DNA of 64,000 nt, taken from NCBI RefSeq assembly GCF_020520425.1, contig NC_079488.1, positions 10,951,747-11,015,746 of the forward strand, written 5' to 3'. The position numbers were made by a program, and so were the translations under genes. Every line of letters starts with the position of its first letter. The stretch's first letter is position 1. The stretch comes from Spinacia oleracea (Eukaryota > Streptophyta > Magnoliopsida > Caryophyllales > Amaranthaceae). This document shows, one piece after another, positions 17,418-64,000 of this stretch. The notes beneath the pieces are model-generated. The model was not told the origin of the DNA. It ran no database searches and saw only the letters and a list, made by a program, of their open reading frames with translations.

Positions 17418-17582
17418 TATGATTCATGCGCACTATTTGTCACGATATTGCAGCGCAACAAGTAGATGTATACTCTTTATTACAATGTTCAAATAAATTA
17501 TTTAATAATAAAGTAAATAAAGCTCACATAAAATACAAATTGATTCAACCATGTCACATAGCACAAAGATGAGGGTGACATA

Positions 17583-19655: not shown

Positions 19656-20691
19656 TTGTTTTTTTTTAAAAAAAAGACCTCCACAATTTATTTATTTAAT
19701 CTGCACTATATATGTAGATTAAAATAAACAAAATGTGAAAGTCTTAGTTATATTTTCCCTCACACTAACAATATACAAATTAACATTCAATTTCAACAAT
19801 AAAATAGTCTACAAAAATTAAAATAAAATGATATCAATAAAAGGGAACATTCCGGAGCATTCTACTTCCATGACTTGCGTAAGAAAGAGGTATATAGATC
19901 TAGAAAATATCTGTTGAAGCTGCATCAAAGGAAACATGATACATACAGTTTGGGAAGTATCCTTCAATACCTCTAACCTCTCAAGTTATCAAATCCTATT
20001 TCACGTATTAGCCTTTGACATTATTTAATGGGCAATGCTACAGGGTATTATTAGAAAAATTATACAAATTAACTAACAATCTTGCATATTACACTAACAA
20101 TATTTTACTGGCGATGCCATCAGAGTATCAGGTATACTTTTAGTTCTCTTTCCCTCTTCCGATATCATAGCTATCAAGCTGTAAATAAAAAATTTGAAGG
20201 AAAAAAGTTAGAGCAACATCAGGAATTAAGAAGAAAGCTTATCATAAAGAAACAAGAAATCACAAGGACTCGAATTACAACAAAACAGTTAACATCTGCA
20301 AAGAGCACATATTCACAGCATAAAAAGCCTTCCATTAGTATTGTATATGCTTCTTCCATTCTTTATTACAGGCAACATCAATATATGAAAGAGCTACTGC
20401 AAACTACAACAAATCCCCATAGGAACGTTGAATAAACAAACTCAGACCCTAACTTTCCAAAGAAAAACCCATCCAAATTCTACTAGTAAACCAATTAAAA
20501 AGAATAGTTGAAAGCTAACCATCAAAAGAACTCATATTACTAAGAATTGGACATGGAAAACAATTGAAAAAGTCTTACTTATTTCAAAAAGTAGGCCAAT
20601 GTTACAGTAGAACACATAGAAGTACACTCAAGTAAACGATTAGGCAAATTAAGTCCAATGACGCTGTAGATATAATTGGCGGGGGGGTGGC

Positions 20692-21010: not shown

Positions 21011-23099
21011 CTGCATATACATAGTTCAGAATTTCCCCAAGATAACCAGACATTCAAAAGAGCAAAGCTATCAAAGATTACCAAACAAATTTTCAGCATG
21101 AATTTTTATTTTATCCAATCCACACAACGAGAAACTATTTCATTATATGCTCTGGATATTCAACACTTAATTTATCATCAAATTCAAATCAATCACTTAA
21201 TTTATTATCAAATGCACAGGCGCACAACGAAACTCATATAAAAAATTGAAAAAAAATACTTGAATTCACAAACTAACCAACATAACTAAACCCCAAATTT
21301 ATATTAAAAAAATTCAGAGCAAATTAATTAAACATGGAAATCAAGATAGGACATAGAATATACCTGAGCATCAAGGTAGCCAAGGACGGGCGGCGAGTTA
21401 AACTAGAGCTCCAACACCAACAATTCGTGATCCAGTAGTGTGGTGTGTTTGACAGCCTTAAAAAACTAAGCCTTTCTGCTTCAGGATGTCACCTTTCTCC
21501 CCGCGCCGAAACCTAGGGTTTCGCCCCTCTTCCCATTTTCGCAGAGCTCGAATTTTCAGATTAAATAGAAAGGGGCGGCTTGGTGAGAGAAGACTTCGAA
21601 TGGATAAGGTTGACTCTGAATTTTTGAAGGTGAGATGGGAGGTGTTGGAGTTCCGGCAATGGAGATTTGGAAAGGAGGAGGAGAGAGAAGGAGAGGAGGC
21701 GAAAAGTTTGTTCGACCTGGATCTATGCGAGAAAATAAATGAAAAAATATAAAAGGGTCACTTGCGTCGTTCAATTATACGCGTGTGACGCAATTTAAGA
21801 GTAAACTGCGTCGCTGATTTACTAATCACCGACGCAAATAATTAAATTAACTTGTATAGGTCCATTTGCGTCACAGATTAGTAAATCACCGACGCAAAGC
21901 ATATTTACAAATCAAAATGTGTATTTTTGCGTCGCTCATTTGAATGAGCGAGGCAATTGTACCGACGTAAATGAGCGTTTTTGCACTAGTGGATGAAAAA
22001 GTTAAAAGGGACCTAATATTTAAGAACAATAGAGTATATACTATCTCTATTTCACAATAATTTTAACATTTTGAATTTTACACTATTCATAAACTCGGCT
22101 TTGACCATTGTTTGTATTTATAGTACCTCCGTTTCAAATTGATCCTTACATTGTGCTTCATAGACATGAATATTTACTACCTTACCCCTTTTATCCCACA
22201 ACATTTATAATTTATCTCTCATTTTCTTTTTTTTTTTTTTTTTTGATAAGCAAGTAAGATATATTATTCCATCAACAAGTACAAATCCACCAAAGATCAA
22301 GAGGACAGGCCCCTCTGATCAGAAACAACCACTGGAATTAAAAAAAAACCAGTGAACACTACCCTGTAACCAGGGCTAAAAATCAACTATAATCCCTAGC
22401 ACTCACAGCTCTAGGTAACACAGCAATGATCCTGTTATGTACAGTCTTCTGTATAAGATCACACACCTTATCAACCCTTCTGATTTGCATATTCCATAGG
22501 GCATTATTTCTTTCTTTCCATATATGGCAAACTGTACAAAGTATACCAGTGGCAAGCACTCCTTTCCTAAATCTGGAAATGTTCCTTTTCTGTAACCAAT
22601 GAAACACACTGTGAAGATCAGTATGGACTAGGGGAATACCTAGCCATTCAGAAATCTGAATCCAGCATTGTGTACTATATACACATCTAAAAATCAGATG
22701 GTTATGGTTTTCTACCTCTGTACCACACAGAAGGCAAAGATTATCAGGTGTAACACCAATTTTCATCATTTTCTCCTTTGTGTTAAGTCTCTCCAGCATA
22801 GCCAGCCAAGCAATAAATCTATGCTTTGGAACTCCCAATCTGTCCCAGATGGCATTGGTCCATTGCAGTCTAACATTGCCAGGTAACAAACTACAATAAG
22901 CCTGTTTGATGGAGTATTTAGGCAAAGCCACCAATTGATCAGTGTTAAATACCCTTTCATTATATCTTTTACTTGGAAAATTGTTCTCCAGTACCAACTG
23001 TCACCAGCTTTAGGAACATAGTCCCACCAGTTCCTATCTTTGATGTAAACTGAGTGCACCCATTTCACCCATACATTATCTTTTTTTGTGGCAATCATC

Positions 23100-24490
23100 T
23101 GAAGGAAATAGTGCCCTTGGTCCAAGTATGCATATAATATTAAGTCTAATAAATGCGGTTCAGTATTAATTAACAAGTTAATAATTCAGTGAGATCAAGT
23201 GAGCTGAATGCCTAGCTAGGGCCGCTTCAGTTCAAGTGGAATTAATGATATTAATCCACAGCTTACTCTTGACTGAACCCGTAGGGTCACACAAATAGTA
23301 CGTAAACGGATCAAGTATTTAATGGCATTAAATACTCCATCTATGGATATTCGGAATCGACGGATCTTGGTTTCAGTGGGAGCTGAGATCGTCACAAGCA
23401 AGAAATGAATACTCCGGAAATGATGATATTGCCGGAAACGGAAATATGGATCGTATCGGAAATATAAATATTATCCAAGTCGTAGAAGTTGCCGGAAACG
23501 GAAACATGGTACGTATCGGAAAATATTATCGGAAATGGAAAAATTGCCAGAATCGGAAATATTGCCGGAAACGGAAATATTGTCAGAATCGGAAATATTA
23601 TCGGAATGGAAAATAATTCCGGAAACGGAAATATTAAATATTTGTTCGAAACGGAAATTAATTCCGGAATTGGAAATATTAAATATTGTTCGTATCGGAA
23701 ATGAATTCCGGAACCGGGAATTTAATCAGAAGCGCATCGTACAAATTAGCATCGGACGAGGCATGCTAGACGAAGGCCCAGCACGAAGCCAGGCCCGCGC
23801 CCAGCAAGCCGAGCGCCCAACATGGAGCTGCCACGCCTCGCCAGGCCCAGCGCAAGGCCAGGCCCAGCAAGGCCTTGGCGCGCGCACGCTAGGCGTGCTG
23901 TTGGGCTGCGAGCAACGGCAGCTCGTGCGGGCCGCAAGGCCTGCGCGGGTGGTGCGATGCTCGTGGCCTTACGATGCTCATGTTCGTAACGAATCCTAAT
24001 CCTATCGGAATTCGTGTATTGATTAAATCCTAATCCTAATAATATTATATTTATTATTTAGAGTTCAAGTTGGATTCTAATTAATAAATCCAAATCCTAG
24101 TAGGATTATAATTCCTTTTCCATACCTCTATAAATAGGAGCCTAGGGTCATAATTTATAGAGACAATTGAAGTATTCTAAAGGTAAGATTTTGAAGAAAA
24201 ATCAGCCATACACTTGCACCTAATAGCCGAAATTCCTAAGCTACCTTAAGAGCGATTCTAGTTGGTCAAGCTTAAGGCGGATCCGGACATGCTGTGGACT
24301 ATCTACGGAGGGACGACACTTGGAGTCCCAAAGACTTGTTCTTGTTCGGTTCGGGCGCAGCTAGGGAGGGCACGCAACAAAGTGTATGCATCTAAACTAT
24401 GCTAAATGATTATGTGTAAATAATATGCTTTTCTGGCTTTATGGTTTTTCCGCATGATTTATGTTTTGTCATATGAATCATAACCTAACA
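23100..24490 (+). repeat. 5' LTR of the nested element
   Basis: Begins TGAAGGAAATAG after the target duplication and ends AACCTAACA just before the primer site. It contains a block of CGGAAATATT-type short repeats (about 23425-23725), a G/C-rich block (about 23750-23990) and a TATA box (CTATAAATAG near 24127). The end of the transcribed part lies near the CTTGTTCTTGTTCGG phrase at 24340. Confidence 0.88.
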
Positions 24491-28656: not shown

Positions 28657-30017
28657 TGTTAGGTTATGATTCATATGACAAAACATAAATCATGCGGAAA
28701 AACCATAAAGCCAGGAAAGCATATTATTTACACATAATCATTTAGCATAGTTTGGATGCATACACTTTGTTGCGTGCCCTCCCTAGCTGCGCCCGAACCG
28801 AACAAGAACAAGTCTTTAGGACTCCAAGTGTCGTCCCTCCGTAGATAGTCCACAGCACGTCCGGATCCGCCTTAAGCTTGACCAACTAGGATCGCCCTTA
28901 AGGTACTTAGAATTTTCGGCTATTGTAGGCAATTATATGACTGAATTTTTGCTCTCAAAAATCACTTTGAATACTTGAATACTCTATATAAATTATGAGC
29001 CCTTAACTCATATTTATAGACCATGGAATAAGTAATCGAATCCTACTAGGATACGAATTAATTAAATTAGAATCCTAGTAGAATTCTTATTTAATTAATT
29101 TATCTTTTAGGATTAGGAATTTTAATCATTAAACAAATCCTATACTCTTTAGGTTTCGAATGTGAACACAAACTCTACACGAGCATGACCCGCAAGCGTG
29201 TAGGCCATGCGCGCGCACAGCCCACACGGCCGCTCGGCCCACGCGAGCTACAAGCCCACGCGAGCTGCAGCAATGCTCGCAGCCCATTGCTGCGCGCGCT
29301 GCGCGTGCTGCCATGACCTGCTGGGCCTGGCCTTGCGCTGGGCCTGGCGTGGCCTTGGCTGTTCGTGTGGCGCGCTTGGCTTGCTGGGCGATGGCCTGAC
29401 TTCGTGCTGGGCCCTCGTCCGGCAGGCCTCGTCCGATGCTTATTCGTACGATACGCTTCCGATTAAATTCTCGGTTCCGGAATTCATTTCCGATACGAAC
29501 AATATTTAATATTTCCGATTCCGGAATTAATTTCCGTTTCGAACAAATATTTAATATTTCCGTATCCGGAATTATTTTCCGATTCCGATAATATTTCCGA
29601 TTCTGACAATATTTTCGTTTCCGGCAATATTTCCGATTCCGGCAATATTTCCATTTCCGATAATATTTTCCGATACGTACCATGTTTCCGTTTCCGGCAA
29701 CATCTACGACTTGGATAATATTTATATTTCCGATACGATCCATATTTCCGTTTCCGGCAATATCATCGTTTCCGGAGTATTCATTTCTTGCCTGTGACGA
29801 TCTCAGCTCCCACTGAAACCAAGATCCGTCGATTCCAAATATCCATAGATGGAGTATTTAATGCCATTAAATACTTGATCCGTTTACGTACTATTTGTGT
29901 GACCCTACGGGTTCAGTCAAGAGTAAGCTGTGGATTAATATAATTAATTCCACTTGAACTGAAGCGGCCTCTAGTCAGGCATTCAGCTCACTTGATCTCA
30001 CTGAATTATTAACTTGT
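28657..30017 (-). repeat. Inverted third LTR copy
   Basis: Starts TGTTAGGTTATGATTC, the reverse complement of the LTR 3' end, and runs through the same features in reverse (primer-proximal part, TATA region, G/C block, CGGAAATATT repeats). It is more diverged from the two direct LTRs than they are from each other, chiefly in the G/C block. It meets the 3' LTR head to head within a few tens of bases. It may be a solo LTR of a sister element or a rearrangement product. Confidence 0.85.
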
Positions 30018-31369
30018 TAATAAGTTAATAAGTGCGGTTCAGTATTAATTAATAAGTTAATAATTCAGTGAGATCAAGTGAGCTGAATGCCTAGCTAGAG
30101 GCCGCTTCAGTTCAAGTGGAATTAATGATATTAATCCACAACTTACTCTTGACTGAACCCGTAGGGTCACACAAATAGTACGTAAACGGATCAAGTATTT
30201 AATGGCATTAAATTCTCCATCTATGGATATTCGGAATCGACGGATCTTGGTTTCAGTGGGAGCTGTGATCGTCACAAGCAAGAAATGAACTCCGGAAACG
30301 ATGATATTGCCGGAAACGGAAATATGGATCGTATCGGAAATATAAATATTATCCAAGTCGTAGATGTTGCCGGAAACGGAAACATGGTACGTATCGGAAA
30401 ATATTATTGGAAATGGAAATATTGCCGGAATCGGAAATATTGCCGGAAACGGAAATATTGTCAGAATCGGAAATATTATCAGAATCGGAAAAAAGTTCCG
30501 GAAACGGAAATATTAAATATTTGTTCGAAACGGAAATTAATTCCGGAATCGGAAATATTAAATATTGTTCGTATCGGAAATGAATTCTGGAACCGGGAAT
30601 TTAATCAGAAGCACATCGTACGAATTAGCATCGGACGAGGCTTGCTAGACGAAGGCCCAGCACGAAGCCAGGCCCGCGCCCAGCAAGCCGAGCGCTCAAC
30701 ATGGAGCTTCCACGCCTCGCCAGGCCCAGCGCAAGGCCAGGCCCAGCAAGGCCTTGGCGCGCGCACGCTAGGCGTGCTGTTGGGCTGCGAGCAACGGCTG
30801 CTCGTGTGGGCCGCAAGGCCTGCGCGGGTGGTGCGATGCTCGTGGCCTTACGATGCTCATATTCGTAACGAATCCTAATCCTATCGGAATTCGTGTATTG
30901 ATTAAATCCTAATCCTAATAAGATTATATTTATTATTTAGAGTTCAAGTTGGATTCTAATTAATAAATCCAAATCCTAGTAGGATTATCATTCCTTTTCC
31001 ATACCTCTATAAATAGGAGCCTACGGTCATAATTTATAGAGACAATTGAAGTATTCTAAAGGTAAGATTTTGAAGAAAAATCAGCCATACACTTGCACCT
31101 AATAGCCGAAATTCCTAAGCTACCTTAAGGGCGATTCTAGTTGGTCAAGCTTAAGGCGGATCCGGACATGCTGTGGACTATCTACGGAGGGACGACACTT
31201 GGAGTCCTAAAGACTTGTTCTTGTTCGGTTCAGGCGCAGCTAGGGAGGGCACGCAACAAAGTGTATGCATCTAAACTATGCTAAATGATTATGTGTAAAT
31301 AATATGCTTTTCTGGCTTTATGGTTTTTCCGCATGATTTATGTTTTGTCATATGAATCATAACCTAACA
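30018..31369 (+). repeat. 3' LTR of the nested element
   Basis: Closely matches the 5' LTR from the TGCGGTTCAGTATTAATT region onward and ends AACCTAACA at 31369, next to the TCATC duplication and the LINE. The left boundary with the inverted copy is approximate. Confidence 0.86.
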
Positions 31370-35816: not shown

Positions 35817-36443
35817 TTAAGCTGTGCCGAATATTCTCTTCAACCTCGTTACTTCCTTGTGACTTAGGAGTGTGATTTTTTCGGCGATGTCACCAGGCAG
35901 ATTGCCGGCAAACAAGGAGAGGGTAGTGAGTTGTAGTCCTGGGTTAGCACCATTCAGACTAACGAATGCAGTTGCGGGAGTTTCACCAACATTGACCTGG
36001 AAGTGAAGCATGGCTTGTGGAAAGACCATGATATCACCGACCTCTAATCTTTTGTAGTATGCAATATTGTTAGAGTCAATAAACCCTGCAATAATTGTAC
36101 CTTTTACAATCAGAATAACTTCAGAAGTTCGGTGGGAGTGTAGTGGGATTACTCCTCCTAACCCAAAATCTAGCCTTGCCATCGAGATGCCTAAACCATT
36201 GAAGGCTGGGAATGCATCCGCAAATGCCAAAGTCACATTATTCGCAAATATATTTGAGGTGGTTCTTTCACCACGGAAACCAGTGTAAACAAAATCATCT
36301 GTAGTGACAGTAGCTGGATCTTTACATGCATACCCTTCAGGTCCCCTAGGGAGACTTAGATCGCCAACACAAAAGTCGTGTTCTAATGCAATCGAGAGGG
36401 AGGCTAAGAGAGAGAAGATGAAGAAAACTGAAAGTGTGTTCAT
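35817..36443 (-). CDS. Germin-like protein, ABP19-like (GLP2)
   Basis: Intact intronless gene of 208 residues, starting MNTLSVFFIFSLLASLSIA (signal peptide of about 19 residues); no upstream in-frame Met competes. The mature part opens LEHDFCVGD where the paralogues have IELDFC. Both germin cysteines, the first cupin motif (PLHSHRTSE) and the second (GDIMVFPQAMLHFQVNVG) are present, so all four metal ligands are kept. One of the two glycosylation sequons of GLP1 is lost (SNNIAYY for SNNTAYY). The C-terminus LKRIFGTA matches the family. Expected to be a secreted, oligomeric wall protein; substrate or enzyme activity cannot be read from sequence. Same strand as GLP1, GLP3 and GLP4, consistent with tandem duplication. 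Confidence 0.95.
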   Translation of the reverse strand: MNTLSVFFIFSLLASLSIALEHDFCVGDLSLPRGPEGYACKDPATVTTDDFVYTGFRGERTTSNIFANNVTLAFADAFPAFNGLGISMARLDFGLGGVIPLHSHRTSEVILIVKGTIIAGFIDSNNIAYYKRLEVGDIMVFPQAMLHFQVNVGETPATAFVSLNGANPGLQLTTLSLFAGNLPGDIAEKITLLSHKEVTRLKRIFGTA

Positions 36444-36531
36444 GGTGTAAGTTGGTGATAAGAAGAAGGGGCTAGGTTTAGTATATGTTGTGGATAAGTT
36501 GGTTGCATTTTCTTAGCAGCAATTGACACCC

Positions 36532-36539
36532 TTTATATA
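36532..36539 (-). promoter_or_regulatory. TATA box of GLP2
   Basis: TATATAAA on the minus strand, about 90 bases upstream of the GLP2 start codon, within the same CTATATAAAGGG phrase as in GLP1. Confidence 0.75.
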
Positions 36540-36664
36540 GAAGTCCATGAGTATGAAAGTCTACGGTTGATCCATGTGCTTACAATTGTTTAAAATGGTA
36601 AACTATTCCACAACTAGCTAGACTAATAATTCAATAATTTTATAAGATAGTATCAATTAATCAA

Positions 36665-36720: not shown

Positions 36721-36757
36721 TAATATTTATTTTCCAATTTTATTATCCAAATTGCTA

Positions 36758-37017
36758 CTCCCTCTGTCACTTAATACTTGCACCGTTTTGACTTTTTGCA
36801 CTATTCACATAATACACTTTGACCCTATTTTACTTATAGTATATGAAAACAAATGTTAGCATATAATATATCGTTGGCTTCATCTTAATCTATATTTTCA
36901 AAATATTAATATTTTTATAAGTTTTTATAATATGTAGTTAAAGATATCGGTGGTCAAAGTTGTGATTTGGCAAGCGTGTCCGGTCAAAACGGTGCGAGTA
37001 TTAAGGGACAGAGGGAG
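36758..37017. mobile_element. Stowaway-like MITE
   Basis: Terminal inverted repeats of about 35 bp (CTCCCTCTGTCACTTAATAC and its partner) bound 260 non-coding bases flanked by TA (36756-36757, 37018-37019). The same family as the decayed copy near 17180-17417. Confidence 0.9.
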
Positions 37018-48589: not shown

Positions 48590-48916
48590 CTCCCTCCGTC
48601 CCGGAATACTTGACCTGATTTCCTTATCGGGCCGTCCCTTAATACTTGACCTGTTTCTAAAAATGGAAATATTCTAACAATATTATATTATTTCTCACTC
48701 CACCCCTATTAACCCACCTACCCCCTACTCCATACAAAAAATAATTAAAAATTCAACCCCTACTCTCCCCATCCCCACCCCTTTACACATTTCCCACTAA
48801 CTACATTAAAATAATACCCCACTATCAACTACTACCTATTAAATTAAATAAGTCAATTCAAGTCCCTTAAACTCTGTACCGGTCAAACCGGGTCGAGTAT
48901 TCCGGGACGGAGGGAG
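48590..48916. mobile_element. Stowaway-like MITE, forward copy
   Basis: Ends CTCCCTCCGTCCCGGAATAC and its inverted partner, flanked by TA (48588-48589, 48917-48918); 327 bases. An inverted sister lies at 49298-49625. Confidence 0.92.
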
Positions 48917-48937
48917 TATACCATTAACTTGGAGGAA

Positions 48938-49201
48938 CAGTCAAATTAGGTGCATTGATAAAGTGTGTAGTCTTGTAAAGCAGAATGCTAATACTAGAAT
49001 TAGTTCAGTTTTACCTAAAGCTATAAGCTCTAGTGATCATAGATGGTTTCTTACCCTTGTTGATGGGTAGCTTTTTGGCTTTGTGCCTTCTTTTTGTGGC
49101 TGTGGACCTGTGGTGGAGTCTGTTCCACTTAATCCACTAGTTTGCTAATTCTGTAAATGTTGATGCATATATATACTAATACTTGCTTATCAAAAAAAAC
49201 A
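48938..49201 (+). mobile_element. 5'-truncated LINE tail
   Basis: Ends TACTTGCTTATC followed by an A run (49191-49199), the same 3' end phrase as the LINE at 22228-35274. An 8-bp duplication TGGAGGAA flanks it (48930-48937, 49202-49209). Only 3' untranslated sequence is left, as usual for aborted LINE insertions. Confidence 0.75.
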
Positions 49202-49297
49202 TGGAGGAAGGGTATAAATAAACGAAATTATTTTATTAAACATACATTAGAATATGATTATACATGCATCATAAAATCCATCTATCAATAGAAAATA

Positions 49298-49625
49298 CTC
49301 CCTCCGTCCCGGAATACTCGACCCGGTTTGATCGGCACAGAGTTTAAGGGACTTGAATTGACTTATTTAATTTAATAGGTAGTAGTTGATAGTGGGGTAT
49401 TATTTTAATGTAGTTAGTGTGAGGTGGGTTAAGAGGTGGGGTTGGGGGAGAGTATGGGTTGAATTTTTAATTATTTTTTGTATGGAGTAGGGGGTAGGTG
49501 AGTTAATAGGAGTGGAGTGAGAAATAATATAATATTGTTAGAATATTTCAATTTTTAGAAACAGGTCAAGTATTAAGGGACGACCCGATAAGGAAAACAG
49601 GTCAAGTATTCCGGGACGGGGGGAG
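49298..49625. mobile_element. Stowaway-like MITE, inverted copy
   Basis: Same family as 48590-48916 in reverse orientation, 328 bases, flanked by TA. The left end reads CTCCCTCCGTCCCGGAATAC and the interior phrase AGGTAGTAGTTGATAGTGGG is the complement of the first copy. Confidence 0.92.
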
Positions 49626-51133
49626 TAATTAATTTAACAAATTAATGGGATATGCTAATATTTATAACTCTACCAAAATACAAAGTATTAATTGAAAAAT
49701 TTATTTGTTGGGCACTAAAATAGAATCAGGAGAGGTTGATCTTATTAAGCTGTCCCGAACATTCTTTTCATTCGCATTACTTCCTCATAACTTAGAAGTG
49801 TGATTTGCTCAGCTATATCAGCAGGTAAATTTCCAGCAAACAAAGAGGGAGTAGTGAGTTGTAATGCTGGGTTTGCACCGTTCAAACTAACAAACGCAGT
49901 AGCTGCAGTTCTACCAACATTGATTTGGAAGTGAAGCATTGCTTGTGGAAAGACCATGACATCACCAACTTGTAATCTTTTATAGTATGCAGTGTTGTTT
50001 GCATCAATAAATCCGGCAATGATTGATCCTTTGGCCAAAATAAGAACTTCTGATGTACGATGGGAGTGTAGTGGGATTACTCCAACAACTCCAAAGTCTA
50101 ACCTGGCCATTGAGATGCCTAAACCATTTAAGGCTGGAAATGCGTCTGAAAATGCTAGAGTCACATTGTTTCCGAAGACGTTTGTGATGGTTCTTTCACC
50201 ACGGAAGCCAGTGTAAACGAAATCATCAGTTGTGACACTAGCAGGATCTTTACAAGCATATCCTTCAGGGCCCCTAGGGAGACTAGGATCTCCGACGCAA
50301 AAGTCGAGTTCTATGCACTACAAAAAAACGCGGCACATTGTGACGCTTTTTGGGACAAATTGCGACGGTATAGAGTGTCGCTATTTCACATAGCGACGCT
50401 TTGGGAGAGGGTCGCTATTTTCATTGCCGCTATTTACCGACGCTTTAGAGCGTCATAATTTGCAAAATATCGATGTATTTCGCCGCCGCTATTTGGAGTA
50501 TAGGGACTCTATAGATAGTCGCAATATTTAGACTGCAAAAAGCGTCACTATTTGCATGCTTATAGACACATTTCTCCGCCACTATAAACCATATAGAGAC
50601 GCTTTAGACACCCGAAATATATAGACTCTTATTAGAGTCCCTATACGTTTACTTTCGTGCGAGTTCTCCTCATTCCCTCCAAAATAATTTAGACCCTTTG
50701 GATCGTCACAATTTGCATCATATATATCAATTAATCAATTAATCTAAAATCACAAATTATTTATAAAATATCTATTGACCATAGATGATGGTAATCAAAT
50801 ACTCTACTACATTATCATAAAACACCGTAACGTCGTGCTTTGATTAATTTAGAAAAAGTGATTTATATAACAATATAAATCATCCATAAATCTCCAGAGT
50901 CTAGTTAACTGAAATAAAAGGAATAGTTAAAACAAAAACAACTTCCTAACATCATATTTTCTACAAGATAGTCCAAAACTAAATAAAAACTACTTCCTGA
51001 CTACGTACAAACTAATTACCAAGTAAACCTATTGCTATGCCAGCTTAGCTTCAAGAGAACTTGTTGATCTTGATCTTCATATACCATTACCACTTGAATC
51101 ATCAATAATCTGCAAAGAAAATTTAATATTTCA

Positions 51134-51136
<3 letters not shown>

Positions 51137-51205
<69 letters not shown>
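51137..51205. repeat. (TA)n microsatellite
   Basis: About 69 bases of uninterrupted TA dinucleotides inside the CACTA element. Confidence 0.97.
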
Positions 51206-51208
<3 letters not shown>

Positions 51209-51462
51209 CATGATGACACATTTTAAAATCAAAGAAAAATTAACAATATCATTTGAATCACTCAAATTATATTTTTCAAGGTAGATCAAGCAAACACTTA
51301 TTCAATCTACGATCTTTGAATAATGAGCTAAATTATAGTTCAGCAAATTCAATCATACATGAACATTATTAAAAAAACAAGGTCCAGGTATCTCCGCGGA
51401 AAATGAAACAAAGAAAAAAAAGTCTAGGTATCGCAGCCAGAGATCTGTGATATTTACACTTA

Positions 51463-51775
51463 ATTCCCTATGATTCTTCCTATCCTGCTCTTTATGGTAT
51501 CCTTAACAACTTTTACAAAAGAATCAGTATGTATAACTTCAAAATTCCAAATTGCATCACTTCTAACTCTCCATATTGGTATTACTAAGGCAGGAACAGC
51601 AGTTTACTGCACCCTTTTCTGGAATCTAGAGCATTTGTAGTCCTTCTATAGCCATTTCAGCAGGTATAACAGATCAATTCTCGAAGTTCTTATCCCTAGC
51701 CACTGCTTAATCTGGTCTAAAGCAGCCTTGCTATAGACACAACCAAAAGACAGGTGCTCAAGAGTTTACCAGCGC
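51463..51775 (-). pseudogene. LINE ORF2 C-terminal scrap inside the CACTA element
   Basis: On the minus strand the text reads LEHLSFGCVYSKAALDQIKQ, then DLLYLLKWL and IWRVRSDAIWNFEVIHTDSF. These are typical of the zinc-binding (zf-RVT) end of plant LINE ORF2 proteins, as in the LINE at 22383-22997. Two in-frame stops interrupt it (after KWL and after RVQ). It shows a LINE relic that predates or arrived in the transposon. Confidence 0.75.
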
Positions 51776-52682
51776 CCTAGCTCTCTATTTTAACATTCTA
51801 CGCTAGAAATTAAGCAGGAATACATAAATATTTATACTCCTGCAGACACAAATTTGGTGTGCGTCTTTGTGATATTGGGTCTGGTATCCACCTGTTGTAG
51901 CCCTTGTAGACGGGTTTTCCTTTCTCATGTTTATCAGTCTGTTTAGGTTAAGATAGTGTTGGTAATGATTTTTTAAATGATTTGGAGAGTCCAGCTGTGA
52001 CAAATACTGAATCTTAAAGAAATTAGCTTCTACTTCTGTCTAGTTTTCCCCCCTAATACATTGTCTGTAAGGATAAATCATGGATGATACCTCTAGACTC
52101 AGTTGAAGAGTGTTTCTTCAATAAACCATGTGCTTCTCATACAATACTATTACCTCAACACAAGTAACAGTAAACAAAACAGATAGAAGAAACTTCTGTA
52201 TTGAGCAACAAGACATCAGATAGCCTGTTCATATAACTAGTATGGAGCTGCTACATAAAGATAAGTGAACAGACCAAAAACAAAACAGACTATAGAATTC
52301 AATCAAACATAAAACAAGCTTTACTATGCGCAACTATAACTCTTTATAGTAGTTGATTTCAGACTTATCTATCACTTATGGTCAGTGTTCGACTGAGCTT
52401 TTATCAGGAGAGTAAGTTGGTGCTGTCTTGGCTTGGCTTACACATTATGATGGTAATTTGGTACTTTGTTGTGGTCTGAGCTCACGATCGAATTTGGAGC
52501 CTAATCCTTTTTAGGTGGAATTTTAACGACCATGGTTAAGCCATATTTAGTGTCATTTGAAAGTATTTAGTGTCATTTAAAATTATTAATAGCTTCATTC
52601 AGCATTCCTATGTTTATTTCAGATTGTTTATGTGCTGTGGTGGTTTGATACTTTAAACTTTGAACACTGATTTTGTTTGCAG

Positions 52683-52990
52683 CAACTATATTTGCTTATG
52701 GACAGAGAAGAATTGGCAAGACATATACAATGCGAGGAATTATAGAAAAAGCTGTAACAGATATTTACAACCACATAATGAATGTAAGGTTCTGATCATA
52801 GAAAGTAAAAGCTCAGTTTAAGCTTAGTATGTTTCGTCCTATAGTTGACATGTCAAACTAATCGCTTCTCCCATGATTACAGACCCCGGAAAGAGAATTC
52901 ACTAGCAGGATTTCTGGACTAGAAATCTATAACAAGAATGTCAGGGATCTTCTCTTCTCAATTGTGAATCTGGTCGCACCCTTAAGCTAG
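52683..52990 (+). pseudogene. Captured kinesin-7 (NACK1-like) motor fragment
   Basis: Exon 1 (52683-52783), bounded by TTTGCAG and GTAAGG, encodes TIFAYGQRRIGKTYTMRGII and EKAVTDIYNHIMN. Exon 2 (from 52883, after ATTACAG) encodes TPEREFTSRISGLEIYNKNV and RDLL, after which the frame shifts but ESGRTLKL continues in another frame. This is the P-loop region of a plant NACK1/HINKEL-type kinesin, a cytokinesis motor of the phragmoplast. The ATP-binding loop, normally GQTSSGKT, reads GQRRIGKT, so it could not work as a motor. Introns are kept, so capture was from genomic DNA. The subfamily is from memory of the conserved phrase and is fairly secure. Confidence 0.85.
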
Positions 52991-52999
52991 AATCTAGGA

Positions 53000-55900
53000 C
53001 CGATTAGTGTGTTGGAGGGGAGAGATTGGTTTCTATGCACAAAACAGCTAAGTTGGGTCCACATAAGCTAGAAATTCTCATTTGTTTTGAAAATAGTAAC
53101 TCGCCCCTTTCCAAAACTGTAACAGAAATACAAAAACATGGAAACAAATGCATACACGCCCCAGTGTAATTCGTAAATAACATACATGACAGTTAATGAA
53201 AGATTACGTCAACAATATTATGGTGTATATGCAAGGACTAAATAAAGTATTAACATGGTGCCATGAGAGAAACTACTACAAATTGGTCGCAAATCTAGAT
53301 GTCATATACTGAATCCTTAGTAGCACAAAAATATATAGAATGTGAGTCCATTACCAACTAGAATACAATAGTGTTATATGCACATACAATTTCACTGGAC
53401 AAGCTACCTAATGTCACTGTCTGTATCATCCTTCCATTAATGTGTTCAACCAAGAAAATTCAATAAAGCAAAAGAGAGAAACGCCACTGCACTAAAACAA
53501 CCATTTCAATTTCTCATATTTTCTTTTTTCTGAACATGGGGAAAAAATTAGACTCAATCAAACTAGAAAATATCAGACACAATCAAACTGGAAAAAAATA
53601 AGACCCAATCAAACTGGAAAAAATCAGACACTTCGTATTATTATTGTCATATTCTTCTCTCTCTCCTTTTCTCTTTATTTATGAAATTGGGAACCATTTC
53701 AGACATCAATTTCAGATTTTCAAAGGAATTAGGACAAAACACTAGATATGACAGTAAATCATACTTTGAATAATATTTTTCTAATACCATAACTAACTAG
53801 AAGAATTGTAACGACTAGAACAACACATGTATAAGAAAAAGAGAATTAGTGAGGATGACCACTTATGGTTTGACAATTTGTAATCTTTGAGTGTTAGTTT
53901 AGTTTGACAATTTGTAATCTTTGAGTGTTAGTTTAGGCCTTGCTAATGCTTACATGCATGGTTTGTGATTTTTAAACCGTAGCATCACAAAGAAAGACTT
54001 TCTCAACCTTAAATGATTATTTGCATACAGCTTCCCTCCCCCCTGGCCATAATTAGACTATAATTAGACTGGAAAAACAAGTGACAGTGCCTCTCCCTTA
54101 TGCTTTATCCCAGTTTAAATTAAATAGTAACAATTCATGTAAACAAATCAGAACAATAATCAAGCATAGAAATGCATGATTTAAAAGTCGTCAGAAAAGC
54201 AATCAGTGTAAAAATATTAAGAACATCAAACATCAAGCTTAAACAAACAGATAGAAGCAATATTAATCTACACTGAAGTTTACACCTACTCATTTATATC
54301 ATTTTACGTAAGGCCATGTGCTTTACACCAATTGAAATGAGTTGATGTTGAATAATATTGGTCTTTATTGATAATAACTGATTTATATTTATTAAAAATG
54401 ATTTTACTGATCAATGTTCAAACAAGGCCACGTATAGCTGCATTTATATCCATTTTATGCATTCCTTTTTAAGTCTTAACATTTGTGAGTTGTTACAACT
54501 TACAAAAGGGAAGTCGGAAACTTAGACATCATAATTAATGTAACAAGCATATATACAGGAGTCAGATTGAGAAGATATAACACTTACATTATCACTTACG
54601 TTGTGAACTTGGATGATTTCCTGGATCATCTTCCAAAAGTATGGATTATTGCATTAGTTTTCTGTGCAAACAAACCGCTCAAACCATTTTGACTTCCCCA
54701 ATCACATCCACGGCCTTTATCAAACTTGCAGAAAATGACATATTAGAGTTCTCCTCTGCATCATATTTTGATATGTACCTGCTCATTAATAACAAAATTT
54801 CAACAATTAGATAATGGGACAGAAGCCACAATGTCTTCCTCTATTAACATCGATGTCAAGAGCTCAAGAAACCTACAGCTATCCAGTTTTGTATGTTACA
54901 ACAATCAGATTAGAAAAAAGATATTGAAAAACCTTTGTAAAAAGTGCATACTTAAAAACCCTGTTGTGAGTCTTGCTAGACATGTTTCAAAATAAGTACT
55001 AGTTACCTGAAAATATTTTCTACCTTCACAAGAATCTTTTGGCACGGAGCAGTAATAGTTTATCCAATAGAACTAATTAACTGAATTTACATAACTCTAA
55101 ACTGCGTAAACAAGCGCTTGTGATTACCTGGAGTACAAAAAGTCCATCAGTAGCCAACACAGACTCACAGTAGCAAAAGAACTCCTCAACGTATTCATGT
55201 CCTAATCTACTAATTCATGTCTTTCAGCTATTTCTAGGATCTCACTGTACCATAAAACAGAAGAAAAATAATAGTTAGAGGAAAAAAAGGAGGAAGAAAT
55301 ATTATATTTAATGGCTACTGCATTTTGTAGAGAATTTTGAGGTCATACCAAGTGAAAATTCAATCATATTATTGGGCACCCTGCAGTTGTCGGTAATCAC
55401 AGAGAAGGAGCGTTATGCGATTCTGTATGCATAACAAATTTATTGGACGGGAATGTGCAGAAAGGCATTGGATAGAATTTAAAGAGACATAAAACCAAAC
55501 AAGTCAACCTCCTTCAACAATGATGCCACTAGACAACGTAAGCTGTTAAATTTCACACAAAACTGCATGATTGATGCATAAATGAGTCTACAGACCCTCA
55601 TCTAGCAGATGTTCTCAAGAAATACGGATATGACTAAGAGGCATAAACTACAAATAAATATTAAAATAAATTCTCGTTTTTTTTAGTGCAACTCGAAATC
55701 TAATGCGTGTTTTCATACAAAAAATAAGACAAGTAATCAACATTCTCATCGTAATGAAAACAGACCTTAACTAGCAATATAATTCAGTTTGTTTTGATAG
55801 GCAACACAAAATTTCTACAGATGATCTAGGTAAATTTAAGTCAAGTTTGTTTTGATTGATAGATGGGAATATTATCGTTAACAAGTTAAAAGATTAGACT

Positions 55901-57319
55901 CACTGAATAGCAACATATTTAGGGACTAGGGCAGGTACAAAGTCAATCAAAGAGTAAGAGGATGCTCAAAAACTCAAAATGCATGCAGGAAGCAGTCCAT
56001 GTAAACCTCGACACTATGTAACTTCAATCCAAAAACATAAAAAACATCTTTCCATAGTAAAGAAACATATCAGTCAATATGGCAAGAGGGTGACATTAGC
56101 ATCTTTCCAATGTGTTTGTTCCATAAAATTTAAATCTTATTGTATTTTGAACTGTTGTTGAAGCATCAAAACTCTTTTTCCTTTTGTTCATTGGTAATAC
56201 AGAGAATACTAAGCGCGACTTTCAGCTCCATAATGAATATATATTTTTAATACTATTGAGAAACACAAAATGGTTGTTCATGACCAGCGCATGACAGGAG
56301 AAAGATAACCAATTACAAAGTGTAATACATGATATAAGGAAGTTCAACAAACTCTTAACTTCATAGGATTTGTGATGAAGGGAAGTTCGTAGCAAAGAAA
56401 GTAAACCTAGTTCGGGTACTTAGCATGTGAATCAAAGTACACTTTGAGAATCTAGATAAAAGAATCTAATTTCATGGCTAATCTTCCATAAATTCCACAA
56501 TAAAGTAAATGGTGAATCTAAGTCACGTAATTCCACAATGTAATGGTGAATCTAAATCACAGAATGCCACAATGTGCTGGTGTCTACTAGATTGCAGGTT
56601 CTAGCTTCACGGTTGCTAACAAAATCATTCTGGACTACAAGGTCGTCACTTATTTGTTAAATACACTGAAGACCAAGAAGGTACTCTAGAGATAATGAAT
56701 AGATGCTTCATGGATATCAGCATATCCACAGGGGCACGAGCTTCATGTATGAGCTTGAATTGGTCATGTGACGGGGGGGGCAATTATGTGGAGACAAGAA
56801 AGAACACAAAAAAGCTATGTTACATGATTCAAAATAGATAAAAAATTCAAGCAAACTCAGAAATTAGATTATACTTTCTAAAGGAACAAAGTCGATACTC
56901 TTTTTAGTCACATTATCAGGTATGTTTTAGTATGAAGCACGCATAAAAAGGTTACTGATAGTGTAGCTTAGATATATGACTAAAAGACTTGAGAACTGAC
57001 CTGGAGTTTCTCTTAAGAACTTTTCAGTCTTTCACCATACTCCTTTACTTCCTGGAGACCTTTATGTAACTGCAAGCAATCCCATATCTTCAAAAAACTA
57101 AGCCTTTAATCTTCAAATGCCCAAACCGACATCGAAAAATGTGCTAATAAAATCATCCAAGTATATACCTTAGTCTGCCGCATTTGACGTACTGAAGATT
57201 GTTTTTTTTAGCAGAAATCAATAACTCGTCCAATTTCTATTATCACCATAAGGTTTAGGTAATCCAGAATTAATACACCAAAATAACGATCTGATTATGC
57301 TAAATAAGCAAAAAGGAGA
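53000..57319. other. CACTA interior, unassigned
   Basis: A/T-rich sequence with short frames only (for example 54768-54995 and 55979-56161) that show no domain or clear exon structure. More captured intron or exon scraps are possible, but none could be supported. Confidence 0.4.
53868..53935. repeat. 34-bp tandem duplication
   Basis: Two adjacent identical copies of a unit beginning GTTTGACAATTTGTAATCTT. Within the CACTA interior, no known role. Confidence 0.9.
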
Positions 57320-57412
57320 GTGTTGAATACCAGGGATATTTTTTCCATACCAGCTACTAGTCGTTTCTTCTCTTCTAACTTTAGCTCCATTTTCGATTTC
57401 TGATAAAAAGAT
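57320..57412 (-). other. Exon-like block of unknown origin in the CACTA element
   Basis: After an AG acceptor on the minus strand (TTTTTATCAG), the frame reads KSKMELKLEEKKRLVAGMEK, a charged, coiled-coil-like stretch. It may be another captured exon. I do not recognise the gene. Confidence 0.35.
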
Positions 57413-57864
57413 ATTATTAGTCGCTTTTGAGTTCTGATAATACAGTCCAATGAACGAAACCTAGAAGACTATTATAAAGCTCCTTGTGTATGAAATGATA
57501 TAGCTCTTCGCCAGGAGAGGAGTAGACTCGCGAGTAGACTATTCCACACTCGCGAGTGGTTAACTAAATATTTATAGCTTATTTTATATATGATGTCAAG
57601 TTGTTAACTAAGTGCCACACATATACTGTTGGATATTAGATTACCAAAACATGCTATTTCTGGTGCCAATTTCAGCAGCAGCTAGCAATGAGGCAGAGAA
57701 GGACAACCAGATAGACTCTTCTAGGCTTCAGCACTACCTCTCGATTGCTTTCCTCTTTCGAATGTTGTCACATGGTAGCCTGAATGTAAGAAGCAACAAT
57801 TTTAAATCAAACCATTTGAAAAAACTAATTTATGAAATTTGGGGAAAAGAGGAGTACCCTGGCC

Positions 57865-58705
57865 TAGGTGCAAAGTAACATCAGAATATGTTTTGTCGAA
57901 TTCACTATTGCAGCCTCCATCAGAACCTGAAGTCCCATTCGTCGCAGAAGAAACCTTGGTTGCTATGGGGTAGTACTCAAGATACATAGGTTTCGGGCGT
58001 TCAGATGGTGTATGAAATCCTCTAAGCTCATAAATCTACAGATCATAAAAATACAGATTTAAAACTGCTATATTAGTCCACCCCACACAGTAAAACTCGA
58101 TCACATGAATGGGAGAAAGAAATATAGTTACTTGTCTAGTAAGGCCCTCTGCTCCTAAATTATTAAAAAAATAGGTAAAAACTGCATCTTTAGTCTTAGG
58201 TAAAACACATAGTACCATGTCACAAGACCAACAACATACATCAAACAAAAATTATAACTATTTAGTCATATAAATACTGTGAAGTACCTGCCTGCGTGAA
58301 TGCTCGGGTTGTTCCATCAGCAATTGGTCCTGCAGTAGCAAGTACTCGCATAAATCGATATTAATTTGGGTGCTTGTCGTACAATAATAGCCTCAAATAA
58401 AAGACACAAATAACCAAAGGGAAGGCACTACAAACTACAGCCACCTTCTTAGCTTTTACAGACAGTAGGCTTTCACTGAGTTGCTTTTCCTGCTGCTGCA
58501 CTTCTTTCAAGCTCAAGTTTGATAAATCTTTACCCAGCATCCTCCTGTAATTGACAATGGTTGTTACTAGCCCGGCCTATGACAGAGTTTATAATAAAAG
58601 ACCACAAACTCGAATCAATGACAGTTTTGAGGACATATACATTTGTCTCAATTGGAGTTTTGTTATCCTGTCTTTCAGACTATCAATCTCCTTCAAATCT
58701 TCTCC
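57865..58705 (-). pseudogene. Captured MIKC MADS-box gene fragment (K and C regions)
   Basis: Minus-strand exons with good splice sites: 58705-58641 (65 nt, EDLKEIDSLKDRITKLQLRQ), 58544-58445 (100 nt, MLGKDLSNLSLKEVQQQEKQ onward), 58329-58288 (42 nt, DQLLMEQPEHSRRQ), a short piece at 58154-58132 (EQRALLDK), and 58035 to about 57865 (ELRGFHTPSERPKPMYLEYY, then SDVTLHLGQ). Exon sizes 65, 100 and 42 are those of MIKC genes. The C-terminal SDxTLHLG phrase resembles the AGL15/AGL18 branch, which is a tentative assignment. The MADS DNA-binding domain was not found. The K domain normally mediates dimer formation between transcription factors. Confidence 0.85.
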
Positions 58706-60088
58706 CTGCAAATAAAAAAGAGATCCAAGAAAAAGAGAATAGTTTGATAAGAGAGGCTTGTTTATACAAAGTAAGCAAAGAATTGTCTAGCTGGCCATAA
58801 TCAACAGAATCCATGCCTGACATTAACTAGATACTTAAAAAAAATCTAACTATACAAGTTATGCAACAGAGAAACAAAGGGAGACATCTTTGTAATCATC
58901 AATCAAGTATGAAAATATAAACACTTCATCGGGAACTAAAAATAGAATTTGAGTCAAGACCCTTATATCTCAATCACGAGTGTTGTCTTTCCGCTTTGTA
59001 CCTTAAACAAGACCAGTAAGGATCGCTGAATTTGGTCTCAAAGAAGGCACATGTGACGTGACAATGTAATACCCATAAGACCTAGCCATAAAGGACATAT
59101 TCCAACCAAATAAATGTGGTAACTTCAAAAAAAAAAACCTCTAAAAAATTCAAGAAACAAGCAGCAACATAGCATCACTCCTTGTTACAAATGCACACTC
59201 AGCTAAATTATACTATTTGTCGATTCAATGCTCCTAAAAATGCTTAATTTATCAACTAGGTGATCCCAATGTAGAACAAAATTCATAAATTTTATGCAAA
59301 AGTTAACCTTAATTTCCAAAACCCACTTTAGAAACTTCAATAGAAAAAAATAAAGACCTAAAAATAAAACCCAGAGATAAATTAAAATTAATCAACAAAC
59401 AAACTAGAAATAAACCCTAAATTCAAACTTAAAATATGTTGAATTTTTATATAAATATTTTTAATTGCCTGAAATATACTATGAGTAGGTAGACAAGAAA
59501 GTTCAAGCACAAAAATTTCGGCAACAAAAATGAAAACAATAAATAAAATCAAACCTTCAAGAACTTCTTCGCGTGAATTGGGAGAATTTATCTGACAAAC
59601 CAAAGAAGCCGGAAATCCAAAACCCGCAACTTAGAGCGAATATCTCTAACAAAAACACTAACTTATTGAAGCTTGAGATGGTTATATTTGGCGAATTGTG
59701 AAAACTATCAATCAGGGTTTCCTTCCTTTTGTATTGAGAGGAATGACAAGATTACTAGCAGATTGCAAAAGAAATTGAGGTGATTCGTTTGTGATAACCT
59801 GTTGTAAACGAAATTAAGGGGATTCTGAGATGACACCAGCGATTCTCTGGGAGTGTATTCAAATTTTCCAATGAGCAGTTGGTTTTTGGAGAGTGTGGGT
59901 TGACTAGGTTGAGTGTTTGATATGTTGTGGGAGCAGGTATGGGAGAATTAAGCGGGGTTAAGGGGGGAAATTTGGCTAAAATTATAAGCGAAAAGTTATA
60001 GTTTAGCGGGCTTAGCTGACATGTGGGTACACGTGTCTTTTATTTGCTAATAACGACGCTCTATAGCATCTTTATATGCTACGACCCT

Positions 60089-60256
60089 TTAAAGCGTCAA
60101 TATTTGCAAACTCCTATCCGCGCCCCAGAAATCCCTGTGACCCTTTCGTGAACCGTCGCAGTTAGTCCGTCTAGATTTGTATGTTTTTCTCATAGTGATG
60201 GCATGAGAAAGAGAGGCTAGGAAGCAAAAGACGACGAAAAGTGTGAGATTGTTCAT
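60089..60256 (-). other. Chimeric short frame: GLP4 signal peptide reading into the CACTA end
   Basis: Translation from the GLP4 start runs through the 19-residue signal peptide and one Ile, then 35 residues encoded by the transposon end (TMRKTYKSRRTNCDGSRKGH and on), stopping at 60091-60089. The result would be a secreted 55-residue basic peptide. This follows directly from the sequence; whether it is made is unknown. Confidence 0.5.
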
Positions 60257-60343
60257 TTTGTAAGTTATAGATATAAGTTTGAAAGGGTAGTTGTAGTATT
60301 GTGAATTGGTTTCTTGCCTTTTCTTAGCAACATTTGATGCCCC

Positions 60344-60350
60344 TTATATA
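60344..60350 (-). promoter_or_regulatory. TATA box of GLP4
   Basis: TATATAA on the minus strand about 90 bases upstream of the GLP4 start, in the same CTATATAAGGGG setting as GLP1 and GLP2. Confidence 0.7.
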
Positions 60351-60356
60351 GAGAAC

Positions 60357-61310: not shown

Positions 61311-61835
61311 AAATAATTGAATATGGATATTCTTCTCAATTCACCTCAATATTTGACCAAAGTATGTGTAGTCCATAAAAAGTGAAAAGATTCATTAAGT
61401 TGATCATCTACAGATGTACAGTGTGTTTTGTATCATGTCAATTAATTTTTCAATTAGATCATCTTACAATTCATTTAATTAATAAACACAAAACTAGATA
61501 TATGCTGGACATTTTATAGTTGATGCTTATGAGACTTATGATATGATATCATGTTTAATTCATGGTTTTCCTAATGCTTTTATATGTTATTTTTATTCCA
61601 ATATAGTCTATAAGAAATAAAAGGTAACATAAAGGTTTAAATGTTTTAGACTTCATGTTGACACGTATTTATAAATTAATGTGCATGGATAAACAACAAT
61701 TAGTGGTTGGTTAAGATGGTAATGAGAAACAAGAAAATAAAATAATTATCAAAACTCTAGAGAGAAGCGAGAGAAAACCTTGCCTTCTCCCCCAAGTTTC
61801 CCTTCGGTGCATGATTTCCATTGTGCACTGCTGCC

Positions 61836-63114
61836 ATGGCAAGGAAGTCTGGGGGCAAAATGCAAGGTAGTAAGCATGGCAATGCAAAGCAGAAACCAAG
61901 AGGACCTTCATCTGATTCTCAGGCTCTTAAGACTCGATCGATTGAGGAGGTTTTAGGGGTCGAAGCACTGGATTTGACGATTGAAAATGAGATTCTCGCC
62001 CCCAAATCTGGATTGAAACATTTGCAAGCTCGTTCTCAACTCAGGCATTCCTTCAATGAGTGGATGCAATCTGTTCACAGATCAGCTAACAAGGTGAATA
62101 ATACTCCATCTAATGTTGATATTGGTACGATTTCCATTCCAATATTGCAACAATTTGAAGAAGTAATGACTGAACATGCTGATAGTGTTGATGATGAATT
62201 TAGGCCACCTGATCCAATTGAAATGCATCCTGTTTCTAGCCCTGTACAGATTTACCTTGATGATATACAGGATGAGGTGGATTTTTGGAATTCTTCCATT
62301 ATCTACTATATTATTGGTGCTAATCCCCCAATACATGTTATGGAAGGGTTTATTAGGAGAATCTGGAAGAAATTTAATGTTGATAAGGTGGTGTTGGTGA
62401 AAAAGGGAATCTACTTAGTGAGATTTCTGACTATGGACATGAGAGACAAAGTCACTTCTGGCCATTTTTTCTTTGAAAGAAAACCTATGGTAGTGAAACC
62501 CTGGAGTGTTGATATGGATATGGAGAAGGAAGAGATCAAATCTGTCCCCATCTGGATTCAGTTGAGTCTGAATTTTAAGTATTGGGGTGAAAAATCTCTT
62601 TTCAAGATTGTGAGTCAGTTAGGCAAACCAATTAAGAGGGATGCAGCCACTGTGAGTAGGGATAAACTTCAGTATGCTAGGGTGTTGGTTGATATTCCAA
62701 TCACACAAAAGCTTCCTAATCAAGTTTCATTTATGAATGAGCATGGTGAGCTGGTTCAGGTACCTATCACCTATGAGTGGAGACCAACTGTTTGTGATAA
62801 CTACAAACTAGTTGGACATTCAACCATTGAGTGTAGGAAGGGGAAAACTAAGAGAATATGGGTGCAGAAAAAACAACAAGTTCAGAATCACACAGAAGTG
62901 GTGGCACCAGAGGTGGATCAGGAGGGGTTTCAAAGAACTCTCAGGCCAATCAGGGTTAGACCTACCAACTTGGTTCCAACACGTTGTTAATTCTTTCCAA
63001 ATGCTGAATGATGATGGTGGTCATAGTGCTTGCAGTACTGCTGAGTTGGATAGGGAAGATGACATTGAGGAGGGTAGCACAGGAAGAGGGAACTCTTCCA
63101 GATCTTATGGATAG
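61836..63114 (+). pseudogene. LINE ORF1 (DUF4283-like, zinc knuckle), frameshifted near its end
   Basis: Starts MARKSGGKMQG in the context GCCATGG, preferred over the Met five codons upstream. The body matches ORF1 of the other LINE (IHVMEGFIRRIWKKFNVDKV). The zinc knuckle reads CDNYKLVGHSTIEC, with Tyr where the second Cys belongs. The frame stops at 62990, but the expected tail (VVNSFQMLNDDGG to SSRSYG) continues in another frame from about 62980 to the stop at 63112-63114, so one base was probably lost near 62980. Confidence 0.87.
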
Positions 63115-64000
63115 GATATTATCATGGAATGTTAGGGGTATCAACCTAGCTCAGAAACAGGATACTGTGAAGCATTTTCTTCATAAATATCATGTGGGGT
63201 TAGTTGGTCTCCTAGAGCATAAGGTTAAGCTTCCTAACTTAGGGAAGCTTTACCAAAGAGTTTTCCCAAATTGGTGTTTCTCTAGTAATGCAAGTTACCA
63301 TAATGGTGGCAGAATTGTTTTGGCTTGGAATCCAGGAAGCTTTTCTGTGAGTATCCAAGTAGCTTCTAGTCAGTTTATGCATTGCTTCATACAACCAGTG
63401 AGTGGTATGCCTATTTTTTTCTGTACCTTCATTTATGCTTTCAATGATAGCTCTAATAGAGAAGTGTTGTGGAAAGATTTGAAAGCTTTAAACACTCAGG
63501 ATGTCTGGATCTTGTGTGGAGATTTCAATTGTGTTATGAGTAATGATGAGAGAGTTGGCTCCCCTGTTAGGAATGCTGAAATAATGGATATTTGTGATTG
63601 TATGCATTTCTGTAGCATGGAAGATATTAAGAGTGTGGGTAATTTCTATACTTGGAATAATAAACAGCATGGTACAGCTAGAGTTTTTTCTAAAATTGAT
63701 AGAATAATGGCTAATCCTAAGTGGTTAGGTGTTTATAGCTCAGCTGAAGTGTGTTTTATGAATGAGGGTTGTTTTGATCATTCCCCTGGATTGTTGACTG
63801 TCTATCCTAGGGATACAGGGGGGGAAAAAAGCCTTTTAAGTATTTTACAATGTGGAAATCTGCTCCTCATTTTCTGACTCTTATCCAAGAACAATGGAGT
63901 GGTACAGTTCAAGTGAGCAAGATGTTTGGTGTTGTTCACAAACTGAAGAAGGTGAAGTTGGTGCTCAAAGAGTTGAATAGAAAGGGATTCTCTGATGTTC
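63107..64000 (+). pseudogene. LINE ORF2 N-terminal part (AP endonuclease), frameshifted
   Basis: Starts MDRILSWNVRGINLAQKQD at 63107, overlapping the ORF1 stop by 8 bases (ATGGATAG). The endonuclease domain runs to about 63810, with LLEHKVKL where many copies have LLETK, GDFNCVMSNDERVGSP, and NEGCFDHSPGLLTVYP near the end. A frameshift lies in the G/A run at about 63820-63830, after which KPFKYFTMWKSAPHFLTLIQ continues in another frame to the window edge. The reverse transcriptase is outside the window. Confidence 0.88.

Follow-up and report, generated by a model that had tools for sequence, protein, structure and literature searches.

A stretch of 64,000 nucleotides (nt) of spinach (Spinacia oleracea) DNA, from contig NC_079488.1 and referred to here as the window, carries four germin-like protein genes (GLP1 to GLP4) on its minus strand, with GLP4 being interrupted by an insert that bears the termini of a CACTA transposon. 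An earlier sequence-only reading of this locus had described GLP4 as split by a 9.9 kb CACTA element, and this description was confirmed by the 9,882 bp length of the insert, its CACTA ends, its ATG target-site duplication (TSD) and a break in the tblastn alignment at the same place. The features of the locus are listed in Table 1.

Table 1. Coordinates (window numbering) of the GLP genes, the insert in GLP4 and the fragments inside it
Feature	Position	Strand	Remarks
GLP1	18209-17583	minus	627 bp
GLP2	36443-35817	minus	627 bp
GLP3	43143-42517	minus	627 bp
GLP4 5' part	60198..60256	minus	59 bp, ATG to codon 20
GLP4 3' part	49745..50312	minus	568 bp, codon 20 to stop; Cupin_1 PF00190 E 4.3e-28 (Pfam); tblastn 93% to GLP3, 190 aa
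GLP4 proximal promoter and 5' untranslated region	60257..60352	minus	TATATAA box starting 94 nt before ATG
CACTA element	50316..60197	no strand	9,882 bp; termini, TSD, break in GLP4
TSD copy 1	50313..50315		ATG on +
TSD copy 2	60198..60200		ATG
Terminal inverted repeat CACTACAAAAAAA	50316..50328	plus	
Terminal inverted repeat CACTATGAGAAAA	60185..60197	minus	
Subterminal region	50330..50720		GCGTC/GCGAC-type direct and inverted repeats; no shuffle control
Subterminal repeats, other end	60054..60184		
LINE (zf-RVT region) fragment	51463..51765	minus	51463-51603 assigned by eye only
Kinesin motor-domain fragment	52683..52957	plus	two exons and intron; Pfam PF00225 E 1.1e-11 over both exons
Cyclopropane-fatty-acid synthase fragment, probable	55080..55430	minus	in-frame stops; CMAS the only Pfam family, E 0.019-0.02, below cut-off
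MIKC MADS-box gene fragment	57861..58705	minus	K-box exons 65, 100, 42 nt; introns retained

The two terminal inverted repeats (TIRs; CACTACAAAAAAA and CACTATGAGAAAA) match at 10 of 13 positions and start with CACTA at both termini, while the 3-bp ATG TSD flanks the insert on both sides. Moreover, a tblastn search with GLP3 aligned residues 19-208 to 50317-49748 (93%) and residues 1-22 to 60256-60191 (59%, E 6.9e-4), and since this alignment breaks independently at the same point, the CACTA boundary is not a chance match. When the GLP4 flanks were joined with a single ATG copy, a sequence of 627 bp including the stop codon was obtained, without internal stop or frameshift, so that the previously proposed sum of 59 + 568 bases is exact and gives the same length as in GLP1-3. 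The insertion point is located after base 59 of the coding sequence, in codon 20, and thus just past the cleavage site of the probable signal peptide MNNLTLFVVFCFLASLSHA (as judged by eye) rather than inside this peptide, as had been stated.

The ends of the element also carry direct and inverted subterminal repeat units of 10-20 bp, as is characteristic of the CACTA (En/Spm) superfamily. Specifically, 50438-50466 and 60082-60110 are 86% identical, GCGTC-type units are present at both ends, and an 18-nt family occurs at 50447, 50539 and 60091 (each without a shuffle control). A Pfam scan of all six frames of the element (with X at stops, E<=0.1) revealed four families, i.e., Kinesin, Microtub_bd, Peptidase_C41 and K-box, and no transposase family. 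The Microtub_bd match (E 0.00032, below cut-off) lies over the kinesin stretch, and that to Peptidase_C41 (E 0.013, below cut-off) was taken as chance. An autonomous CACTA was ruled out since no transposase was detected in the six frames, and any excision would therefore need a transposase from elsewhere. A search of the window for a second copy of the element ends, allowing up to one mismatch, yielded none, save a chance occurrence of CACTAAAAAAAA inside the element at 55677. By Pfam the element has no transposase, and it contains pieces of a kinesin and of a MADS K-box gene, of a long interspersed nuclear element (LINE) and probably of a cyclopropane-fatty-acid (CFA) synthase gene; it is therefore non-autonomous, gene-capturing and Pack-CACTA-like. 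These captured fragments, together with the lack of a detectable transposase, go beyond what the sequence-only reading had reported. The element also contains a 69-bp AT-dinucleotide run (window 51137-51205) that is a possible marker for its copies. Neither Rfam at its gathering threshold nor a tRNA scan gave any hit in the window.

As in Pack-CACTA elements, host gene fragments are situated between the TIRs (kinesin and K-box, with the synthase below cut-off). When ten stop-free pieces of the element were scanned singly with Pfam, 6 of the 10 matched no family at E<=1; AAA_14, ATPase_2, ASL_C2 and 5-FTHF_cyc-lig appeared as weak secondary matches, none of which reached its cut-off, and were ascribed to chance. 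The first kinesin exon by itself scored above cut-off (E 3.8e-8) and the second below it (0.0054), PDB kinesins matched the captured fragment with a best E of 4.3e-6, and its P-loop reads GQRRIGKT vs. GQTSSGKT in a PDB kinesin. For the MADS-box fragment, the K-box (PF01486) was recovered with E 5.4e-13 over the three joined exons and with 6.7e-8 in the frame of the 100-nt exon alone, whereas the whole frame in the six-frame scan gave E 2e-5, below its cut-off there; in PDB, SEPALLATA3 matched the piece with E 0.003. Beyond the K-box exons, a partial and a C-terminal exon were placed by eye, and the neighbouring pieces had no Pfam match when scanned singly. The captured MADS exons retain their flanking introns and good splice sites (acceptors at the 98-100th and donors at the 82-99th percentile of the window), indicating that genomic DNA was captured. 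The synthase fragment is graded as probable because its Pfam E is only 0.019-0.02; the piece upstream of it had no Pfam match alone, and the sole PDB match of the stretch was cyclopropane synthase 1 (E 1.2). Finally, 51649-51765 aligned to the zf-RVT open reading frame of the window at 22383-23000 (47% over 36 aa, pairwise E 8e-9), and no Pfam family was found for either LINE piece at E<=1. The kinesin piece is on the plus strand, whereas the MADS, synthase and LINE pieces are on the minus strand. The stops in the synthase and the altered kinesin P-loop, next to an open GLP4 frame, suggest that the captures are older than the GLP4 insertion, by a good margin.

GLP4 contains a Cupin_1 domain with the HxH, E and H ligands of germin-like proteins. 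In its joined translation, the germin metal ligands H102, H104, E108 and H147 are all retained. The earlier claim that every catalytic-fold residue was kept therefore holds for these four ligands, but not for residue 96, where GLP4 alone among the four GLPs carries Val, whereas GLP1-3 and the aligned chains of the solved germin-type proteins barley germin and peruvianin-I have Gly. This G96V is one of the eight private nonsynonymous changes of GLP4. The ratio of private nonsynonymous to synonymous changes is 8:19 in GLP4, 7:14 in GLP3, 14:26 in GLP1 and 18:25 in GLP2, and the comparison of GLP4 with GLP3 yielded a synonymous divergence (dS) of 0.53 and a nonsynonymous to synonymous ratio (dN/dS) of 0.09. 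Inspected by eye with methylation-type decay in mind, the bases beside these eight changes showed no obvious pattern. A pattern query with GLP3 gave 25 matches in viral and 27 in prokaryotic contigs, of which none was a confirmed relative, and is uninformative on plants.

The constraint test based on the 8:19 count used 131 of the 189 variable columns, the dropped ones comprising 35 that split two against two and 23 that show at least three states. Since 13 of the latter 23 carry a base unique to GLP4 (2 nonsynonymous, 11 synonymous), their addition changes the count to 10:30. In a Poisson profile at 8:19, the best estimate for the unconstrained share of the GLP4 private branch was 0, with an upper 95% limit of 0.15-0.16, or 0.13, with an upper 95% limit of 0.28, when prior constraint was set as absolute. 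At 10:30, for which the comparison rates were those of the 8:19 version and not recounted, the upper limits were 0.07-0.08, and 0.20 under absolute constraint. Over all versions, at most 7-28% of the GLP4 private branch thus fits loss of constraint, and the matching neutral distance is at most ~0.014-0.041. Adding the 13 columns tightened the limits on the share, and the only distance to rise was that of the absolute-constraint case (from 0.036 to 0.041). A similar limit of ~0.03-0.04, which rests on an assumed indel ratio, follows from the lack of stops and indels in GLP4. With substitution rates between 6.5e-9 and 1.5e-8 per site and year, the neutral distance limit would correspond to an insertion age of at most roughly 1-6 million years. 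The proposal that the insertion is recent is therefore supported, as GLP4 has no stop or indel and looks, with 8:19 (or 10:30), as constrained as GLP3 with 7:14. An old GLP4 pseudogene is ruled out by this open frame and constraint pattern.

These data make it likely that the locus harbors a young null allele of GLP4, made by a non-autonomous, gene-capturing CACTA element. Such an element would earlier have acquired the kinesin and MADS-box fragments, from at least two host genes, probably that of CFA synthase as well, and a LINE. In more recent evolutionary time it would have landed immediately behind the codons for the GLP4 signal peptide, producing the customary 3-bp duplication. Upstream of GLP4, 60207-60352 is 71% identical to 36394-36541 at GLP2 (blastn), with ~96 bp of this match situated 5' of the GLP4 ATG, and a TATA motif is present within 130 nt upstream of all four GLPs, suggesting that GLP4 transcription may still start. 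Transcription from the GLP4 promoter would then enter the element. Read-through from the GLP4 ATG into the element gives 55 codons followed by a stop, at which translation would end, and a null allele is therefore predicted. Most likely, the allele is a complete or near-complete null, and GLP1-3 take over for GLP4.

A number of points weigh against this interpretation. It is drawn from the sequence of one assembled allele. The constraint test has low power, comprising only 27 or 40 private changes, and involves four paralogs at a pairwise dS of 0.53-0.91 with gene conversion being ignored. Its outcome fits a recent insertion or a still-working GLP4 alike and does not separate the two, and G96V may reflect either an early lesion or an older substitution that was tolerated. 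Nor is it proven that capture preceded insertion, as the K-box exons are stop-free and the decayed pieces may stem from sources that were pseudogenes already.

Among the alternatives, it is highly improbable that the junctions are assembly artefacts, since the TSD and the CACTA termini are present at both joints, exactly at the GLP alignment break, as expected of transposition and not of misassembly. Excision in somatic or germ cells might restore GLP4 in some plants, in which case the sequenced copy would represent one among several allele states. Both element ends and the TSD are intact, as mobilisation needs, but with no transposase found in the element by the six-frame Pfam scan we regard this as rather unlikely. 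Transcripts might also be chimeric, with the first 59 coding bases of GLP4 and the element end being spliced to the captured MADS exons. These exons share the strand of GLP4 and have good splice sites, the element offers a donor at 59798 (96.8th percentile), and Tgm-Express1 provides a precedent for chimeric transcripts (PMC1947982, excerpt), so that such RNAs are possible, if still doubtful. However, the reading frame that starts at the GLP4 ATG ends after 55 codons, short of the donor at 59798, and the chimeric RNAs would therefore not encode a signal-peptide fusion.

The sequence-only reading had further allowed for protein still being produced through splicing. In such a case, the element would be removed as a new ~9.8 kb intron via sites in its termini, and GLP4 would be secreted with a net addition of 14, 18 or 28 residues behind its signal peptide. 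Candidate donors were taken from the first 59 bases of GLP4 and up to 420 nt into the element, and acceptors from its final 250 nt and the 60 nt that follow, with splice weights from general knowledge that served only to rank sites within the window. The TIR at 50316..50328 forms a minus-strand acceptor at the 97th percentile of window AGs, and a second acceptor, CATAG (91st percentile), is located 5 nt past the element across the TSD and keeps the reading frame when paired with donors that lie 44, 56 and 86 nt inside the element; in total, 11 in-frame open donor/acceptor pairs of any score exist. Nevertheless, the workable donors are weak (57th-71st percentile of window GTs, with the best-balanced ones at 44 and 56 nt reaching the 70th-71st), the only donors that keep the frame with the strong TIR acceptor rank at the 0.4th and 18th percentile, and no in-frame pair has both sites above zero log-odds. 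In random ends, the five threshold pairs, which were chosen after the site scores were known, were reached by 540, 99, 79, 280 and 342 of 1000 draws, with the 79 belonging to donor>=70/acceptor>=90. In random ends, pairs of such quality are thus uncommon at acceptor>=90 (79 and 99 of 1000), although they do arise, and splicing is therefore possible but not indicated. A dSpm insert in maize A2, an intronless gene, is reportedly spliced. The 13 kb TgmR* is accurately spliced from within an intron (PMC4219821, excerpt), but this intron existed already, whereas GLP1-3 are single open frames without introns. Taken together, restoration of GLP4 by splicing appears improbable. Slightly more improbable still is the fuller scenario in which the element became a new intron with the TSD building part of the acceptor, so that removal of 9.8 kb gives a secreted GLP4 with a short basic insert while the same pre-mRNA also yields MADS chimeras. 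If true, splicing out of the element would explain why the GLP4 frame stayed open.

The window contains several other repeats and mobile-element remnants. Just downstream of GLP4, a fold-back element (48590-49626) has arms of ~345 bp that are 94% alike when inverted (blastn) and ends CTCCCTCCGTCC and CTCCCCCCGTCC next to TA; we presume it to be Stowaway-like. About 1.5 kb from the 5' end of GLP4, DUF4283 and endonuclease frames, which are presumably LINE-like, lie at 61815-63877. Near GLP1 and GLP2, a 246-bp inverted copy (17174-17419 and 36756-37001) is 87% identical. Further away, 28657-31369 forms a large imperfect inverted repeat (86% to its own complement, blastn), of which 30018-31369 has a 97% identical copy at 23138-24490 (blastn). 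A 736-codon frame at 2893-5103 with reverse-transcriptase RNase H and integrase domains is, by these domains, a long terminal repeat (LTR) retrotransposon remnant, and 15086-15956 and 19325-19656 hold a diverged tandem repeat and a small palindromic repeat array.

As matters stand, the disruption of GLP4 is an ordinary event of which each part is of a known kind in plants. It nonetheless offers a clean, young case of gene disruption by a gene-capturing CACTA element within a tandem gene family, in which the pre-insertion gene can still be read. Should splicing or polymorphism of the allele be demonstrated, the locus would provide a natural test of a large transposon becoming an intron. No published report of this element was found in a full-text literature search of partial coverage.

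Comparison with known CACTA systems draws on excerpts of the articles cited. Tgm-Express1 at the soybean wp locus is likewise a CACTA element made of exon-intron fragments of several host genes and located in the gene that it disturbs, but it is 5.7 kb long, resides in intron 2 of F3H and holds five fragments (PMC1947982), whereas the GLP4 element is 9.9 kb long, interrupts the coding frame of an intronless gene and holds two clear gene fragments and one probable. The Tpn1 family of Japanese morning glory similarly has captured host fragments between subterminal regions that are shared among CACTA relatives (PMC8195511). The Arabidopsis Pack-CACTA query TIR CACTACAA is also present at one end of the GLP4 element, whereas its other end reads CACTATGA; capture of several loci by one Pack-CACTA element has been reported as well (PMC8903248), and the capture mechanism has been reviewed (PMC13317346). 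CACTA elements of Chenopodium also contain captured gene fragments, one of them from a flower-development gene, but there neprosin and AP2 fragments lie upstream of a TAD coding domain (PMC8978399), whereas the GLP4 element has MADS and kinesin fragments and no transposase domain that was found. Splicing of CACTA-containing transcripts is known (PMC4219821), and the dSpm in maize A2 is, going by the title of Menssen 1990, a CACTA element with terminal splice sites, in contrast to the GLP4 element, in which no strong in-frame donor was found. The GLP4 insertion falls within the kinds already known from Tpn1, Tgm-Express1 and Pack-CACTA.

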